64,000 nt of DNA from Streptosporangium becharense (GTDB taxonomy: Bacteria; Actinomycetota; Actinomycetes; Streptosporangiales; Streptosporangiaceae): the NCBI RefSeq assembly GCF_014204985.1, contig NZ_JACHMP010000001.1:4526001-4590000 (forward strand). Direction: 5' to 3'. The notes below the pieces were generated by a model. The model saw nothing but the letters and a program-made list of their open reading frames with translations, was not told the DNA's origin and made no database searches. Position numbers and translations under genes: made by a program. This document shows positions 27,105 through 47,113 of the stretch, one piece after another (position 1 is the stretch's first letter; each line of letters begins with the position of its first letter).

Positions 27105-27135
27105 GATTTCCCGGAATCGGCAACAGAAATTGCCG
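27105..27135. promoter_or_regulatory. Inverted repeats between XRE-cupin and methyltransferase genes
   Basis: CGGCAA-N6-TTGCCG (27118-27135, perfect 6-bp arms) and the adjacent GATT-N6-AATC (27105-27118). They lie in the short divergent promoter region, a natural binding place for the XRE regulator. No test of function is possible from sequence. Confidence 0.55.
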
Positions 27136-27165
27136 TCTCTGCCCGGCGAGTGCACGCTCTTCGGC

Positions 27166-28221
27166 ATGAACTCACACCACGACTCCGCACGCGGACACGG
27201 ACACGGAACCGGACACGGAAACGAAACCGGACACGGAAACGAAACCGGCCACGGTCACGGAACCGGCCACGGAAACGCATCCGGACACGGTCACGGTCAC
27301 GGACATGGGCATGGGCATGGGCATGGGCACGACAGCACCGACGTCGACTGGGAGGCCATGGCCGCCCAGCTGGAGGACAGCGGCGAACTGCAGCTTCCGG
27401 TCCTCCGCCGGACGGCGGCCCGCCTGAGGGAACTGCTCGGCCCGGAGAAGCCGGGGAAGGAGGTTCGGCGCATCCTCGACATCGGCAGCGGGCCGGGCGT
27501 GATGACCTGTGTGCTCGCCGAGACCTTCGTGGATGCCGAGGTGGTCGCCGTGGACGGCACACCGGGCCTGCTGGACCGCACCCTGGCCCGCGCCGAGCGG
27601 CTCGGCCTCGGTGGCAGGGTGGCCGTCCGGCACGCGAATCTGCCAGAGGACCTGGACGGTGGTGACTGGCACGGGGAAGGCGGACTCGGCCCGGCGGACC
27701 TGATCTGGAGCAGCAAGACCGTGCACCACCTCGGCGATCAGCAGGAGGCGCTGAACGATCTCGCCGGCTTGCTGAGGCCCGGGGGGCTGCTCGCCGTGGC
27801 GGAGGGCGGCCTGCCGATGCGCTTCCTCCCGCGTGACATCGGCGTCGGCAGACCGGGCCTGCAGGCACGGCTCGACGCAGCCCAGGAGCACTGGTTCGAG
27901 ATCATGCGAGCCGAACTGCCCGGCAGCGTCACCGTGGTCGAGGACTGGCCCGCGATGCTCGGTCGTGCCGGGCTCACCGGCGTCGGCAGCTTCACCCCCC
28001 TCCTCGACCTGCCCGCACCCCTGGGCGAGACGGCCCGCGCCTTCCTGCACGCCCATCTGACCCGGCTGCGGGGGGCGGCGAGCGAGCTCCTGGACGCGGA
28101 GGACCTCGAAACGCTCGATGTGCTGCTCGATCCCGGGGCGCCGGAGGGCATCCTGCGGCGGCCCGACGCCTTCCTCCTCTCCGCCACCACGGTCTTCACG
28201 GGCGTGCGCCGGGCTCGGTGA
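27166..28221 (+). CDS. Class I SAM-dependent methyltransferase with His-rich N-terminal tract
   Basis: 351 residues from ATG 27166. Residues 4-55 contain 17 His, almost all as Gly-His pairs with TGHGNE-like words, coded by short nucleotide repeats. The methyltransferase core follows: RRILDIGSGPGVMTCVLAETF (motif I), VVAVDGTPGLLDRTLARAERLGL (motif II region), then DLIWSSKTVHHLGDQQEALNDLAGLLRPGGLLAVAEGG. The His tract could bind Ni, Zn or Co, as in metal chaperones, but may simply be slippage-prone. Substrate unknown. Divergent XRE-cupin regulator upstream, MFS exporter 142 bp downstream: together plausibly a resistance or metabolite-modification-and-export set. Confidence 0.85.
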   Translation: MNSHHDSARGHGHGTGHGNETGHGNETGHGHGTGHGNASGHGHGHGHGHGHGHGHDSTDVDWEAMAAQLEDSGELQLPVLRRTAARLRELLGPEKPGKEVRRILDIGSGPGVMTCVLAETFVDAEVVAVDGTPGLLDRTLARAERLGLGGRVAVRHANLPEDLDGGDWHGEGGLGPADLIWSSKTVHHLGDQQEALNDLAGLLRPGGLLAVAEGGLPMRFLPRDIGVGRPGLQARLDAAQEHWFEIMRAELPGSVTVVEDWPAMLGRAGLTGVGSFTPLLDLPAPLGETARAFLHAHLTRLRGAASELLDAEDLETLDVLLDPGAPEGILRRPDAFLLSATTVFTGVRRAR

Positions 28222-30999: not shown

Positions 31000-31383
31000 T
31001 CACCGGCGGGCAACGGCGGCCTCCTCCAGCCGGTGCTGGAAGTCGTCGATGTCGGGGGTGAACCAGACCTGCGTACCCCGGTTGGCCTCGCGGACGAAGT
31101 CCCGCAGGGCGGAGCTGGCGGCGGTGTGCCGGGATATGTCACCGAGGACGGCGATGCCCATCCGGTAGTTGACGAACTTCTGGACGATCTCGCCGGCGAC
31201 GCGGGTGCGCAGCCGGAAGAAGTCGTCGTCGAACCGGCCGGCCGGGACGACGACCCAGTCGGCGCCGAGGTACGAGGCCTCACCGATGATGTCCAGGGCG
31301 TCGCGCTCGCCGCGTAGTGTCGCGCCTTCCGAAGCGCACACGAAGACCGTCGTGCCGTACATGTGCCGGAGGGTGTCAGACAT
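31000..31383 (-). CDS. DUF4180 domain protein
   Basis: 127 residues from ATG 31383. The DUF4180 pattern is clear: GADWVVVPAGRFDDDFFRLRTRVAGEIVQKFVNYRMGIAVLGDISRHTAASSALRDFVREANRGTQVWFTPDIDDFQHRL, ending in a short helix. The family is small and of unknown function. It overlaps the end of the alpha/beta-hydrolase gene by eight bases and so is the third gene of an HTH-hydrolase-DUF4180 operon. Confidence 0.88.
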   Translation of the reverse strand: MSDTLRHMYGTTVFVCASEGATLRGERDALDIIGEASYLGADWVVVPAGRFDDDFFRLRTRVAGEIVQKFVNYRMGIAVLGDISRHTAASSALRDFVREANRGTQVWFTPDIDDFQHRLEEAAVARR

Positions 31384-32251
31384 GGGGGCGTGCTCCTTCC
31401 GGAGCGCGGAGGAAGTCGAGGATCGGCATGGTCTGCCCTTCCAGGAGGTGGCCGGCGTCGGGCAGGAGGTTGACCGTCGCGTGCGGCACGGCCTGCTCCA
31501 GTCGCCTGCGGGTGTCGTGGGAGTCGAGGACGGTGTCGAGGCCGCCGACGATCACCAGCATGGGCATGGTCAGCCGCCGCAGGGCGTCGTCGTCGAACAC
31601 CGGGATCTTCTCCCGGCGGGGGCGGAAGTGCTTGTTGATGAGCATCATGTACTCGCCGAAGGCCTGAGCCTCCGGCGTCGTCGCGGGGGCGGTGGGGCCC
31701 AGTATCACCCCCAGTGCCTTCCGCCTGCCCCATTTCCCGAACGACAGCAGCAGCAGCGCCAGGAGCAGCCAGCCCGTCTTCTGCCTGCCGATGCCGCCGG
31801 GGCACAACAGCGCGAGGCGGTCGACCCGCTCGGGATTCCGGGTCGCGTAGTCCGTCGCCAGCCAGCCGCCGAGCGAGACGCCCACGATCGAGACGCGCCG
31901 GACGCCCAGCCCCTGCAGTACGTCGTCCAGCCAGAGCGCGTAGGCGTCGGACGCCAGCGGTGGCCGGGACGGCGCACTCAGGCCCGGCTCGCCGATCATG
32001 TCGACGGCGTACACCCGGAAGTCGCGTGACCAGGCGGCCACGTCGGCCATCCACATCGACGTGTTGGCCATCGAACCGTGCAGGAGCATCAGGGGCGGCG
32101 CGTCCTTCGGGCCGCAGGCCACGACGAAGGTCTCGCCCTGACGGGTCGGGACGCGCAGGTGCTCGCTGGGCACCGGCCAGCGCTCCAGATACTCGCGGTA
32201 GCGCTGCTCGACGGTGCGGGCACCCTCGGGGGAGACGTAGATGCCGTTCAC
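31376..32251 (-). CDS. Alpha/beta hydrolase
   Basis: 291 residues from ATG 32251. The fold is clear: oxyanion segment LMLLHGSMANTSMW, nucleophile elbow GVSLGG (Ser126), acidic residue in VGGLDTVLDSHD and the catalytic His in DAGHLLEG. A hydrophobic helical cap (LLLALLLLSFGKWGRRKALG) sits near residue 165. Substrate unknown; esterases, lactonases and haloperoxidase-like enzymes share this pattern. Its start overlaps the stop of the HTH gene (ATGA) and its end overlaps the DUF4180 gene, so the three are translationally coupled. Confidence 0.9.
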   Translation of the reverse strand: MNGIYVSPEGARTVEQRYREYLERWPVPSEHLRVPTRQGETFVVACGPKDAPPLMLLHGSMANTSMWMADVAAWSRDFRVYAVDMIGEPGLSAPSRPPLASDAYALWLDDVLQGLGVRRVSIVGVSLGGWLATDYATRNPERVDRLALLCPGGIGRQKTGWLLLALLLLSFGKWGRRKALGVILGPTAPATTPEAQAFGEYMMLINKHFRPRREKIPVFDDDALRRLTMPMLVIVGGLDTVLDSHDTRRRLEQAVPHATVNLLPDAGHLLEGQTMPILDFLRAPEGARPHV

Positions 32252-32685
32252 GGGTTCTCCTTCACCAGCGTATTAATGATCTTGAAAAGTTCCGCGCCGT
32301 CATCCAGGCCCCCGATGATGATGATCTTCAGGCTGGCTCGTTCCTCGTCGTAGATCGTCTCGACGCGCAGGCGCTCGCCGCCGGGGGTGCGGCCGGAGAC
32401 GGCGGCCATGAGCGTGTTGCTCAGGCTGCTCATCGCCCCGGGGCTGATCGCGTCGATCTGCACGACGCTGGACGCCTCGATGTGACGCCGGCGCCTGGCC
32501 GTCTCGGTGGCGGGCGGTGCCACCGGGTGGCCGGTGAACGCCTCCAGGTCCTCGCGGGTGATCCGGTACTGCTTGCCGATGCGGACCGCCCTCAGCCGCC
32601 CGTCGCGCACGTAGTTGCGCACCGTCTTGACGTGAAGGTTCAGCAGGTTCGCCACCTGCTCGACCGTGTACGGCTGTTGGGACAC
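32248..32685 (-). CDS. Excisionase-type HTH regulator with C-terminal sensor-like domain
   Basis: 145 residues from ATG 32685. Residues 5-52 form a MerR/excisionase-like winged helix (YTVEQVANLLNLHVKTVRNYVRDGRLRAVRIGKQYRITREDLEAF). The C-terminal 70 residues contain ASSVVQIDAISPGAMSSLSNTLMAAVSG...RVETIYDEERASLKIIIIGGLDDGAELFKIINTL, an alpha/beta domain I do not know, perhaps for ligand binding or dimerisation. It is the first gene of the operon with the hydrolase and DUF4180 genes and lies behind a 33-bp palindrome, which it probably binds. Confidence 0.85.
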   Translation of the reverse strand: MSQQPYTVEQVANLLNLHVKTVRNYVRDGRLRAVRIGKQYRITREDLEAFTGHPVAPPATETARRRRHIEASSVVQIDAISPGAMSSLSNTLMAAVSGRTPGGERLRVETIYDEERASLKIIIIGGLDDGAELFKIINTLVKENP

Positions 32686-32722
32686 CGCGATCCTTCCCCG
32701 AACGGATTCCGCTTGCTTGCCG

Positions 32723-32761
32723 AATATACCCTATCGCTCCCTCAATTGAGGAGCGATAGGG
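32723..32761 (-). promoter_or_regulatory. 33-bp palindromic operator and -10-like box before the HTH operon
   Basis: Outer arms CCCTATCGCT (32729-32738) and AGCGATAGGG (32752-32761) pair perfectly around the inner palindrome CCTCAATTGAGG (32740-32751), with one unpaired C at 32739. On the minus strand a TATATT hexamer (32723-32728) follows at once, suitable as a -10 box 38 bases from the start codon. No T tract follows, so a terminator for the upstream araC gene is less likely than an operator. Confidence 0.75.
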
Positions 32762-32784
32762 AATTTTAGGGAATGTGATGCCTG

Positions 32785-33738
32785 TCAGTCGGCGATCGTC
32801 CTCCGGGAGCGGGCACCGCGGTGCTCGTGCGGGCTGACACCGCGGACGCGCTTGAAGGCGGTGCTCAGGGCGAAGGAGCTGCCGTAACCGGTCTGGCGTG
32901 CCACCGCGCCGACGGTGGCGTCGGTCTCGCGCAGCAGGTCGGCGGCCAGCGCCAGCCGCCAGCCGGTCAGGTAGGTCATGGGCGGCTCGCCCACCAGCTC
33001 GGTGAAGCGGCGGGCCAGCGCCGCCCGGGAGACGCCGGTCTCGGCGGCCAGCGTGGCGACCGTCCAGGGGTGCGCCGGGTTGTTGTGGAGCATGCGCAGG
33101 GCTCGGCCCACCACGGGGTCGCCGTGTGCCCGGTACCACGCCGGCGGCCGCGCCTCCGGCCGGGAGAACCAGGCGCGCAGGGCGGCGATGAGCAGCAGGT
33201 CGAGCATCCGGTCGAGAACCGCCTCCTGTCCCGGCTCGTCCCTGCCGATCTCGCCGGCGAGCAGCGGGATGAGCGGGCTGTCCCAGCTCCCGGCCGGGAG
33301 CGTCAGCAGGGTGGGGAGCGCGCGCAGCAGCCGCTCGCTGATCTCTCCGCGCATCTGGTAGGTGCCGGTCAACAGCGTCGTGGCGCCGTCCGGGCTGTTG
33401 CCCCAGGTGCGAACGCCCAGGTCCATGGCCTGGGCCAGCGGTTCGCCGTCCGGGGTCGTGCAGCGCTGGCCAGGGTGGATCACCACCTGCGGCGGGGTGG
33501 CCGGATCGTCGGCGACCGTGTAGGCGCCGGGGCCCCGGATGATCGCGACATCCCCCGGGGCGAGCCGCACGGTGTCGCCGTCATCAGGGACGATCCACGC
33601 TCCGCCCCGAAGCATGGCCACCAGGGTGAGCGGCGCCCGGTCCTGGATCCGCAGAGACCAGGGCGGGTCCATGACCGAGCGGAGCAGGAAGGCTCCCCGG
33701 GCTCTCGGTCCATCGAGAAGGCTTGCGAGTACGTCCAT
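32785..33738 (-). CDS. AraC-family regulator with N-terminal cupin domain
   Basis: 317 residues from ATG 33738; longer starts enter the promoter region. The N-terminal half is an AraC_binding_2/cupin_6 domain (DVLASLLDGPRARGAFLLRSVMDPPWSLRIQDRAPLTLVAMLRGGAWIV...APGDVAIIRGP). The C-terminal domain has both HTHs: HNNPAHPWTVATLAAETGVSRAALARRFTELVGEPPMTYLTGWRLALAADLL and VGAVARQTGYGSSFALSTAFKRVRGVSPHEHR. This type often controls small oxidoreductase genes; here the divergent DUF1772 gene, 97 bp away, is the likely target. Confidence 0.92.
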   Translation of the reverse strand: MDVLASLLDGPRARGAFLLRSVMDPPWSLRIQDRAPLTLVAMLRGGAWIVPDDGDTVRLAPGDVAIIRGPGAYTVADDPATPPQVVIHPGQRCTTPDGEPLAQAMDLGVRTWGNSPDGATTLLTGTYQMRGEISERLLRALPTLLTLPAGSWDSPLIPLLAGEIGRDEPGQEAVLDRMLDLLLIAALRAWFSRPEARPPAWYRAHGDPVVGRALRMLHNNPAHPWTVATLAAETGVSRAALARRFTELVGEPPMTYLTGWRLALAADLLRETDATVGAVARQTGYGSSFALSTAFKRVRGVSPHEHRGARSRRTIAD

Positions 33739-33835
33739 GCGCCTCAACGTAGACGCTGAAACATGGAAAAGCGCCTCTGGGCTATGGAGAGTCTCACTGG
33801 GGGCCGATTCACTGGTCGGTGGGAGAAAGGAAACG

Positions 33836-34318
33836 ATGGTGGAACTGCTCCGGGTCGCCGCCCTGTTCGCCGCCACGATCACCACGGGGCTCGTGGCGGG
33901 TCTCTTCTACGCGTACGCGTGTTCCGTCATGCCCGGTCTGAGCCGCACCGACGACCGCACCTTCGTCGGGACGATGCAGTCGATCAACGTGGCCATCCTC
34001 AACGGCTGGTTCGCCGTCTGCTTCCTGGGTGCGCCGGTGACGACGGGCGTGGCGGCGGGGCTCCACCTCCACCGGGAGGGGCGGGCGGCGCTGCCCTGGA
34101 TCGCCGCCGCGTTCGTGCTGTACGCCGCGACGATCGCCGTCACCGCCGCGGTCAGCGTGCCGATGAACAACGTGCTCGACGCGGCGGGGGAGCCCGGCCG
34201 CATCGCGGACCTCCCGGCTGTGCGGCGGGATTTCGAGGCCGGGTGGGTGCGGTGGAACCTCGTCCGCGCGGTGACCTCGGCCGCCGCGTTCGCCTGCCTG
34301 GTCCGGGCCCTGCTGTGA
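33836..34318 (+). CDS. DUF1772 (anthrone-oxygenase-like) membrane protein
   Basis: 160 residues from ATG 33836 with AAAGGA upstream. Four hydrophobic spans (residues 5-28, 50-72, 84-105, 140-158) and the family motifs FYAYACSVMPGL, SINVAILNGWFAVCFLGAP and VPMNNVLDAAGE...RRDFEAGWVRWNLVRAVTSAAAF identify DUF1772. Fungal relatives oxidise anthrones, but bacterial members are mostly of unknown function. Its divergent AraC neighbour probably regulates it. Confidence 0.88.
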   Translation: MVELLRVAALFAATITTGLVAGLFYAYACSVMPGLSRTDDRTFVGTMQSINVAILNGWFAVCFLGAPVTTGVAAGLHLHREGRAALPWIAAAFVLYAATIAVTAAVSVPMNNVLDAAGEPGRIADLPAVRRDFEAGWVRWNLVRAVTSAAAFACLVRALL

Positions 34319-47074: not shown

Positions 47075-47113
47075 GCGCCTCGCGCGACCCGGTGACCGGG
47101 TCGCGCGAGGCGC
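47075..47113. terminator. Near-perfect 39-bp palindrome between convergent genes
   Basis: The 19-base arm GCGCCTCGCGCGACCCGGT (47075-47093) is exactly complementary to 47095-47113, with a single central G. It begins 10 bases after the tatD stop and precedes the stop of the FG-GAP gene on the other strand. It should form a very stable hairpin on either transcript; no T tract follows. Confidence 0.75.

Follow-up and report, generated by a model that had tools for sequence, protein, structure and literature searches.

The window analysed here is a 64-kb stretch of Streptosporangium becharense DNA, and the locus of interest lies on its minus strand. As listed in Table 1, a gene for a small helix-turn-helix (HTH) regulator is followed by genes for an α/β hydrolase and a DUF4180 protein. 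The first two genes overlap by 4 bp and the last two by 8 bp. Such an overlapping HTH-hydrolase-DUF4180 run, preceded by a 33-bp palindrome, had been proposed in an earlier note on this DNA, and both the overlaps and the family matches described below bear it out. The palindrome, CCCTATCGCTCCCTCAATTGAGGAGCGATAGGG, is likewise present, and is located between the operon and the stop codon of an araC-type gene (32785). That neighboring region (32785-34318) contains a Cupin_6/AraC-type regulator gene on the minus strand, divergent from a plus-strand gene for an anthrone-oxygenase-like small membrane protein (33836-34318); the two likely constitute a separate regulator-target pair. Elsewhere in the window, a methyltransferase-like ORF (27130-28221) carries a long N-terminal His-Gly-rich repeat (HGHG/GNETGH), which is unusual for its family and perhaps binds metal.

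Table 1 Features of the locus in the window, with positions counted from its first nucleotide.
Feature	Position	Strand	Description	Basis
HTH regulator gene	32248-32685	minus	GTG start, 145 aa; HTH_17 winged HTH at residues ~4-53, then C-terminal domain	
Regulator C-terminal domain	32257..32475	minus	residues 71-143, β-α-β-β-α, without Pfam match	
α/β hydrolase gene	31376-32251	minus	relative of Bacillus carboxylesterase NP/YbfK	
DUF4180 gene	31000-31383	minus	STAS-like predicted fold	
Palindrome	32729-32761		33 bp; perfect outer arms of 11 bp	
Inner palindrome	32740-32751		12 bp	
Putative operator array	32723..32777	minus	five 13-bp boxes on a 10-bp lattice; three in the TTCCCTA direction, then two inverted	PWM scan and core coordinates
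Box 1 core TTCCCTA	32767..32773	minus	perfect; outside the palindrome	PWM scan and core coordinates
Box 2 core TTCCCTA	32757..32763	minus	perfect	PWM scan and core coordinates
Box 3 core CTCCTCA	32747..32753	minus	degenerate	PWM scan and core coordinates
Box 4 core CTCCCTC	32737..32743	plus	inverted, degenerate	PWM scan and core coordinates
Box 5 core TACCCTA	32727..32733	plus	inverted	PWM scan and core coordinates
TAGGGT, possible -10 element	32728..32733	minus	inside box 5	analogy with TAnnnT peaks of homologues

The hydrolase aligns with Bacillus carboxylesterase NP/YbfK (PDB entries 4ccw, 2r11, and 4ccy) over residues 10-272, nearly its whole length, with a score of 141.7 bits, and it is a predicted esterase. 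Ser 126, Asp 239, and His 268 are invariant in 22 aligned members and would form the catalytic triad. The DUF4180 protein scores 132.8 bits against PF13788 (cut-off 25), and all 33 of the 33 aligned members match the family. Its structural model (pLDDT 97.0) has a predicted STAS-like fold. STAS chains such as RsbS lead both lists of fold matches, with middling scores (Z 8.4 and an rmsd of 3.4 over 110 residues for 4xs5; a Foldseek E-value of 0.02 at best), whereas a sequence search gave no match to a STAS family. An RsbS-like phospho-switch was considered and dropped, there being no invariant serine or threonine in the matching loop of the alignment. In the single literature collection searched, DUF4180 appears in one paper, as a passing mention.

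The regulator was described in the earlier note as an excisionase-type HTH protein with an unknown C-terminal domain, and this description stands. The protein scores 61.2 bits against HTH_17 (PF12728, cut-off 27) and 57.4 bits against TIGR01764, the excisionase-family DNA-binding domain (cut-off 28.8). It falls short of the NCBIfam BldC model (21.5 bits, cut-off 77), and membership in the MerR family (PF00376) was rejected at 24.8 bits, below the curated cut-off of 28.2. In the predicted structure (mean pLDDT 88.8, pTM 0.54) a winged HTH is connected by a less certain linker to a small β-α-β-β-α domain, the part for which the earlier note had suggested a structure prediction. The winged HTH matches BldC and Pukovnik Xis (4j2n), the latter being the best match both by sequence and by Foldseek. 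With a Z-score of 7.7 and an rmsd of 1.5 over 50 residues against BldC (6amk_B), the N-terminal part has a MerR-like winged HTH fold. A role as a mobile-element excisionase is not favored, as no match was found in a phage collection. The C-terminal domain resembles ferredoxin-like, Pcc1, and KH chains (Z 7 to 10), a fold too common for a named relative to be assigned. Seven examples of the domain gave no Pfam match at E-values up to 5 beyond chance-level hits, and a B12-binding domain was found by Pfam neither in the regulator nor in the seven C-terminal parts.

With respect to the palindrome, the earlier note had given 10-bp outer arms around a 12-bp inner palindrome. The inner element, CCTCAATTGAGG, is as described, but the outer arms are perfect over 11 bp. 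The centers of the two are offset by half a base. The palindrome is one of five inverted repeats in the window whose arms are 11 bp or longer and whose loops do not exceed 15; each of 20 first-order shuffles gave zero to two. The longest in the window lies elsewhere, at 47075-47113, with 19-bp perfect arms and a 1-base loop. Closer inspection of the region in front of the HTH gene reveals five 7-bp cores with the consensus TTCCCTA, spaced 10 bp apart. In the best reading, the palindrome consists of boxes 2-5 of this five-box array, and it looks palindromic as a result of the regular lattice combined with the switch in box direction. Neither box 1 nor the 10-bp lattice figured in the earlier note.

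HTH homologues were gathered from 150 genomes of the source organism's family (56 with a match at an E-value of 1e-15) and by scanning named genomes (78 loci, reduced to 77 upon removal of L110, which lacks a full HTH). Removal of near-identical upstream regions reduced 106 to 87 for an exact-word count and to 84 for the weight matrix (PWM) and core tests; four loci (L002, L003, L092, and L110) were left out of the former, and the same four together with L111 from the weight matrix scan. The sequences are related, and thus the counts that follow are not independent events. Exact TTCCCTA, on either strand, is present in 54 of the 87 regions against 2.0 expected. A weight matrix that was started from a typed seed finds a mean of 3.3 boxes per region versus 0.43 in shuffles. 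Since a 13-bp matrix might favor its own period, the test was rerun with the 7-bp core alone, allowing at most one mismatch. The mean number of cores was then 1.99 in the 84 regions, as compared to 0.32 in shuffles and 0.07 upstream of 491 other ORFs of the same loci. At least two cores are found in 54 of the 84 HTH upstream regions and in 2 of the 491 others. The distance between neighboring cores deviates from a multiple of ten by no more than 1 bp in 86 of 88 pairs, and boxes in the TTCCCTA direction precede inverted ones ("+ then -" 36 times, "- then +" once).

A held-out set was drawn from 345 Actinomycetes genomes, 34 of which contain the HTH (Micromonospora query, E-value 1e-15). Thirty new loci were obtained; removal of nine that were too near earlier ones left 21 regions sharing less than 15% of their 12-mers with those used before. 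All 21 contain at least two boxes, as do 5% of shuffles, and 24 of 27 same-strand neighbors are 9-10 bp apart. When cores are counted, a stricter measure, 11 of the 21 have at least two. A clear inverted repeat, on the other hand, was listed for only 23 of 107 upstream regions, in some of them at other places, and thus the conserved element is the box array rather than the palindrome. A plain two-fold operator was ruled out for the palindrome on the same grounds: the boxes, but not the palindrome, are retained in most relatives. The proposal in the earlier note that an upstream element controls the operon is thus sustained in the link of that element to the HTH gene, and replaced, as to the palindrome itself, by a phased array.

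The earlier note had also remarked on a -10-like box, and the minus-strand hexamer TAGGGT is indeed there (32733-32728), although a promoter scan gave no sigma-70 match in the palindrome region of the window. In homologues, TAnnnT peaks at -14 (15 of 84) and -12 (23 of 84) from the start codon, against a mean of 2.5 per position. These positions often have no ribosome-binding site in front of them, which suggests that the messages of these homologues are leaderless and that the last box serves as the -10 element. TAnnnT is read by 37 of 116 boxes in the inverted orientation and by ∼7% of the 147 others. Note that the HTH gene of the window has a longer leader than the homologues with the TAnnnT peaks. 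A possible -10 element that overlaps the last box points to repression, and we consider it likely that the BldC/Xis-like winged HTH protein, with its C-terminal domain, represses its own operon through two converging runs of boxes.

The HTH protein, bound to the array, could instead be an activator, or an architectural protein that shapes the promoter. The relatives of BldC have pleiotropic roles (as outlined in the excerpted parts of PMC5859096 and PMC11963761), and the array often extends upstream of the possible -10 element by over 40 bp. Nevertheless, it is the box in the gene-proximal direction that itself reads TAnnnT in 37 of 84 loci, and the -14 and -12 peaks fall in the last box, where bound protein would block the polymerase. 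We regard activation or promoter shaping as unlikely.

Four observations tie the array to the HTH gene. Six HTH loci without either partner (L034, L073, L082, L087, L094, and L106) each hold two to four boxes; the seventh, L035, had been removed by dereplication before the boxes were listed. Of 30 DUF4180 loci from the family, a phased chain of at least two boxes is present at some place within the locus in 21 of 23 with the HTH versus 2 of 7 without it. For DUF4180 genes unlinked to an HTH gene, such a chain is found in 3 of the 6 genomes with an HTH gene at another place and in none of the 11 without one (one-sided Fisher P 0.03), these being small numbers; G138 was excluded from the set, as its HTH and DUF4180 genes are 3.3 kb apart. 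One of the three chains, in L139, is doubtful, lying ∼640 bp from the DUF4180 gene, and upon its exclusion the comparison becomes 2 of 6 versus 0 of 11 (P 0.11). The other two, in L136 (1310-1480) and L189 (1300-1420), are directly in front of the DUF4180 gene, hinting that it may be controlled in trans.

A single copy of the direct pair TTCCCTANNNTTCCCTA is present in the organism's own 7.8-Mb genome, even when one mismatch is allowed. In the 150 family genomes there are nine exact occurrences, seven of them at an HTH locus, compared to two for the reversed control pattern. Specificity is poor for the inverted pattern TTCCCTAN{3,23}TAGGGAA taken alone, with 17 places in 15 of the 150 genomes, 6 of which are at an HTH locus, and 10 places for the reversed control; it has no exact match in the organism's own genome. 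Box pairs away from HTH homologues were noted at G020:C591:11830-11846, G020:C240:5520-8235, and G076:C1:1350006-1350022. Taken as patterns in the DNA, the partnerless loci, the two sets of DUF4180 loci, and the direct pair link the array to the HTH gene.

Outside the Actinomycetota, the array also accompanies the HTH gene onto plasmids; distant relatives have little of it. It is clear on a Klebsiella plasmid (L142) and a Bosea plasmid (L143), with chain scores reached by 0 of 1000 shuffles, and weak in Microvirga (L145, 36 of 1000) and on the Klebsiella plasmid pOXA926 (L146, 37 of 1000). A chain-score scan found no box upstream of the Paraclostridium gene (L144), and in Pseudomonadales (L109) the array is not above chance, being matched by 241 of 1000 shuffles; that locus was in the training set. 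In principle the array, for all that it stands in front of the operon, could serve another regulator, one encoded by the host. Binding of the HTH protein to it is a prediction from sequence, the nine direct pairs in the family include two that are not at an HTH gene (in G020, a genome without the HTH, and in G076), and the inverted pattern is common elsewhere. Speaking against such a regulator, the array moves with the HTH gene between genera and onto plasmids, it is kept at HTH genes that have lost both partners, and none was found at the 11 DUF4180 loci whose genomes lack the HTH. Control by such a regulator is accordingly improbable.

The HTH gene and its partners form a conserved association, as can be seen from their distribution. 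Among the 150 family genomes, the HTH is found in 56, DUF4180 in 53, and both in 42, where independence would give ∼20. In 36 of these 42 the two genes are on the same strand within 3.4 kb, and in 35 of the 36 within 1.1 kb. The HTH gene adjoins a hydrolase gene, a DUF4180 gene, or both in 70 of the 77 named loci (both partners in 13, hydrolase only in 24, DUF4180 only in 33, and neither in 7). Gene chains from a crude ORF walk were used for overlaps only. The DUF4180 gene is divergent from the HTH gene in eight loci (seven in Kribbella and one in Streptomyces), and there the two share an intergenic region. Protein distances are correlated between the HTH and the hydrolase (r 0.78, n 42) and between the HTH and DUF4180 (r 0.67, n 44), each with 0 of 2000 permutations and each without an unrelated gene pair as control.

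Beyond the Actinomycetota, a Klebsiella plasmid and a Paraclostridium plasmid each carry the annotated trio, and HTH and hydrolase genes occur together on a Bosea plasmid and on another Klebsiella plasmid. The order is HTH-DUF4180-hydrolase, not HTH-hydrolase-DUF4180, on the Paraclostridium plasmid (L144, 4001-5654) and at L109 (4001-5343), and thus the association of the HTH with its partners survives rearrangement. On the Klebsiella plasmid pOXA926_130002 (L146, 2498-4426), the HTH-hydrolase pair is ∼0.7 kb from a class D β-lactamase gene; no link is implied. Class draws outside the Actinomycetota returned matches in the centre genomes alone (1 of 274 and 1 of 289), so the module is rare there. 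Co-occurrence of the three families, the check put forward in the earlier note, is thus strong in the family genomes, in the named loci, and on plasmids. The same note had taken the unit to be undescribed, and literature searches of a single collection yielded no description of it.

That the palindrome terminates transcription of the upstream araC-type gene, an alternative raised in the earlier note, or attenuates it, is rejected as very improbable: it does lie between the araC stop codon and the HTH start, and the region forms a stable RNA hairpin, its folding on either strand exceeding that of dinucleotide-shuffled sequence (z -4.35 and -4.60), but no terminator-like site was found at it, most relatives have the boxes without a hairpin, and the AraC protein, in contrast to the boxes, is upstream of the HTH at this locus only (at L035 it is downstream).

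Several known systems offer partial precedents for autorepression from such an array; the comparisons are drawn from excerpts of the cited reports. BldC of Streptomyces, a 68-residue protein with a MerR-like winged HTH and no added domain, binds 9-bp direct repeats head-to-tail and cooperatively (PMC5859096). The winged HTH fold is common to BldC and the window regulator. BldC-type 9-bp direct repeats, however, are not what is found here: the boxes recur every 10 bp with a change of direction, such that two runs converge, the protein has an added domain of ∼75 residues, and its gene heads a conserved module. The excisionases Pukovnik Xis (4j2n) and, as excerpted, RdfS (PMC11963761) have an HTH_17-type winged HTH and are able to oligomerize on DNA. 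They act in recombination, in contrast to the window regulator with its esterase and DUF4180 partners and its additional C-terminal domain.

CarH and CarA are MerR-type proteins that, in the parts of PMC9304148 consulted, act on tandem 11-bp promoter repeats. For CarA, inverted repeats were proposed first and direct repeats were favored later. CarH senses through a B12-binding domain, and none was found in the window regulator by the Pfam search. ArdK/KorA, according to the excerpt of PMC9723621, exemplify a single regulator able to recognize direct as well as inverted repeats; they do so as single dimers, not as an array, and the searches made here gave no relation to the window regulator. 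A converging 10-bp array read by a protein with such a C-terminal domain was not found in print in the single literature collection searched.

The sequence itself shows the array with its phasing and polarity, its tie to the HTH gene, and the association of the genes; the autorepression that we consider likely goes beyond this and is pictured as follows. The three genes would form a conserved, translationally coupled module controlled by its own regulator, which would bind a ladder of 10-bp boxes running towards a central axis from both sides. Copies of the regulator, one for each helical turn, would share a single face of the DNA. Each run is probably a head-to-tail series, and the two runs are probably joined across the axis through the C-terminal domain, with the linker allowing the gaps of one or more helical turns that are observed. 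Bound regulator would cover the -10 region and repress the operon. A signal would then release it, permitting the synthesis of the esterase and the STAS-like DUF4180 protein, and that signal may be processed by the module itself. A sensing role, as put forward for the unit in the earlier note, is likewise an inference.

A bolder version of this picture is put forward tentatively, and we hold it to be possible rather than probable. The regulator would represent a new family of autoregulators in which two opposite head-to-tail runs meet at a dyad on a 10-bp lattice, such that a single protein would unite the BldC mode of assembly on direct repeats with the classical dyad symmetry. In this scheme, the point where the runs meet would be closed by the C-terminal domain, the co-encoded STAS-like DUF4180 protein would be an anti-repressor or a partner switch, and the signal would be produced or removed by the esterase.

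A single footprint could test both the phasing at base level and the order of the boxes, and thus the prediction is a sharp one. Were it correct, a hypothetical trio seen in numerous actinomycetes, and on certain plasmids from other phyla, would become a defined module with a predicted operator, and a testable function would be at hand both for DUF4180 and for the unannotated C-terminal domain. The known range of BldC-like proteins, for which only direct repeats are described in the excerpted report (PMC5859096), would also widen to include one whose head-to-tail assembly must switch polarity at its center.
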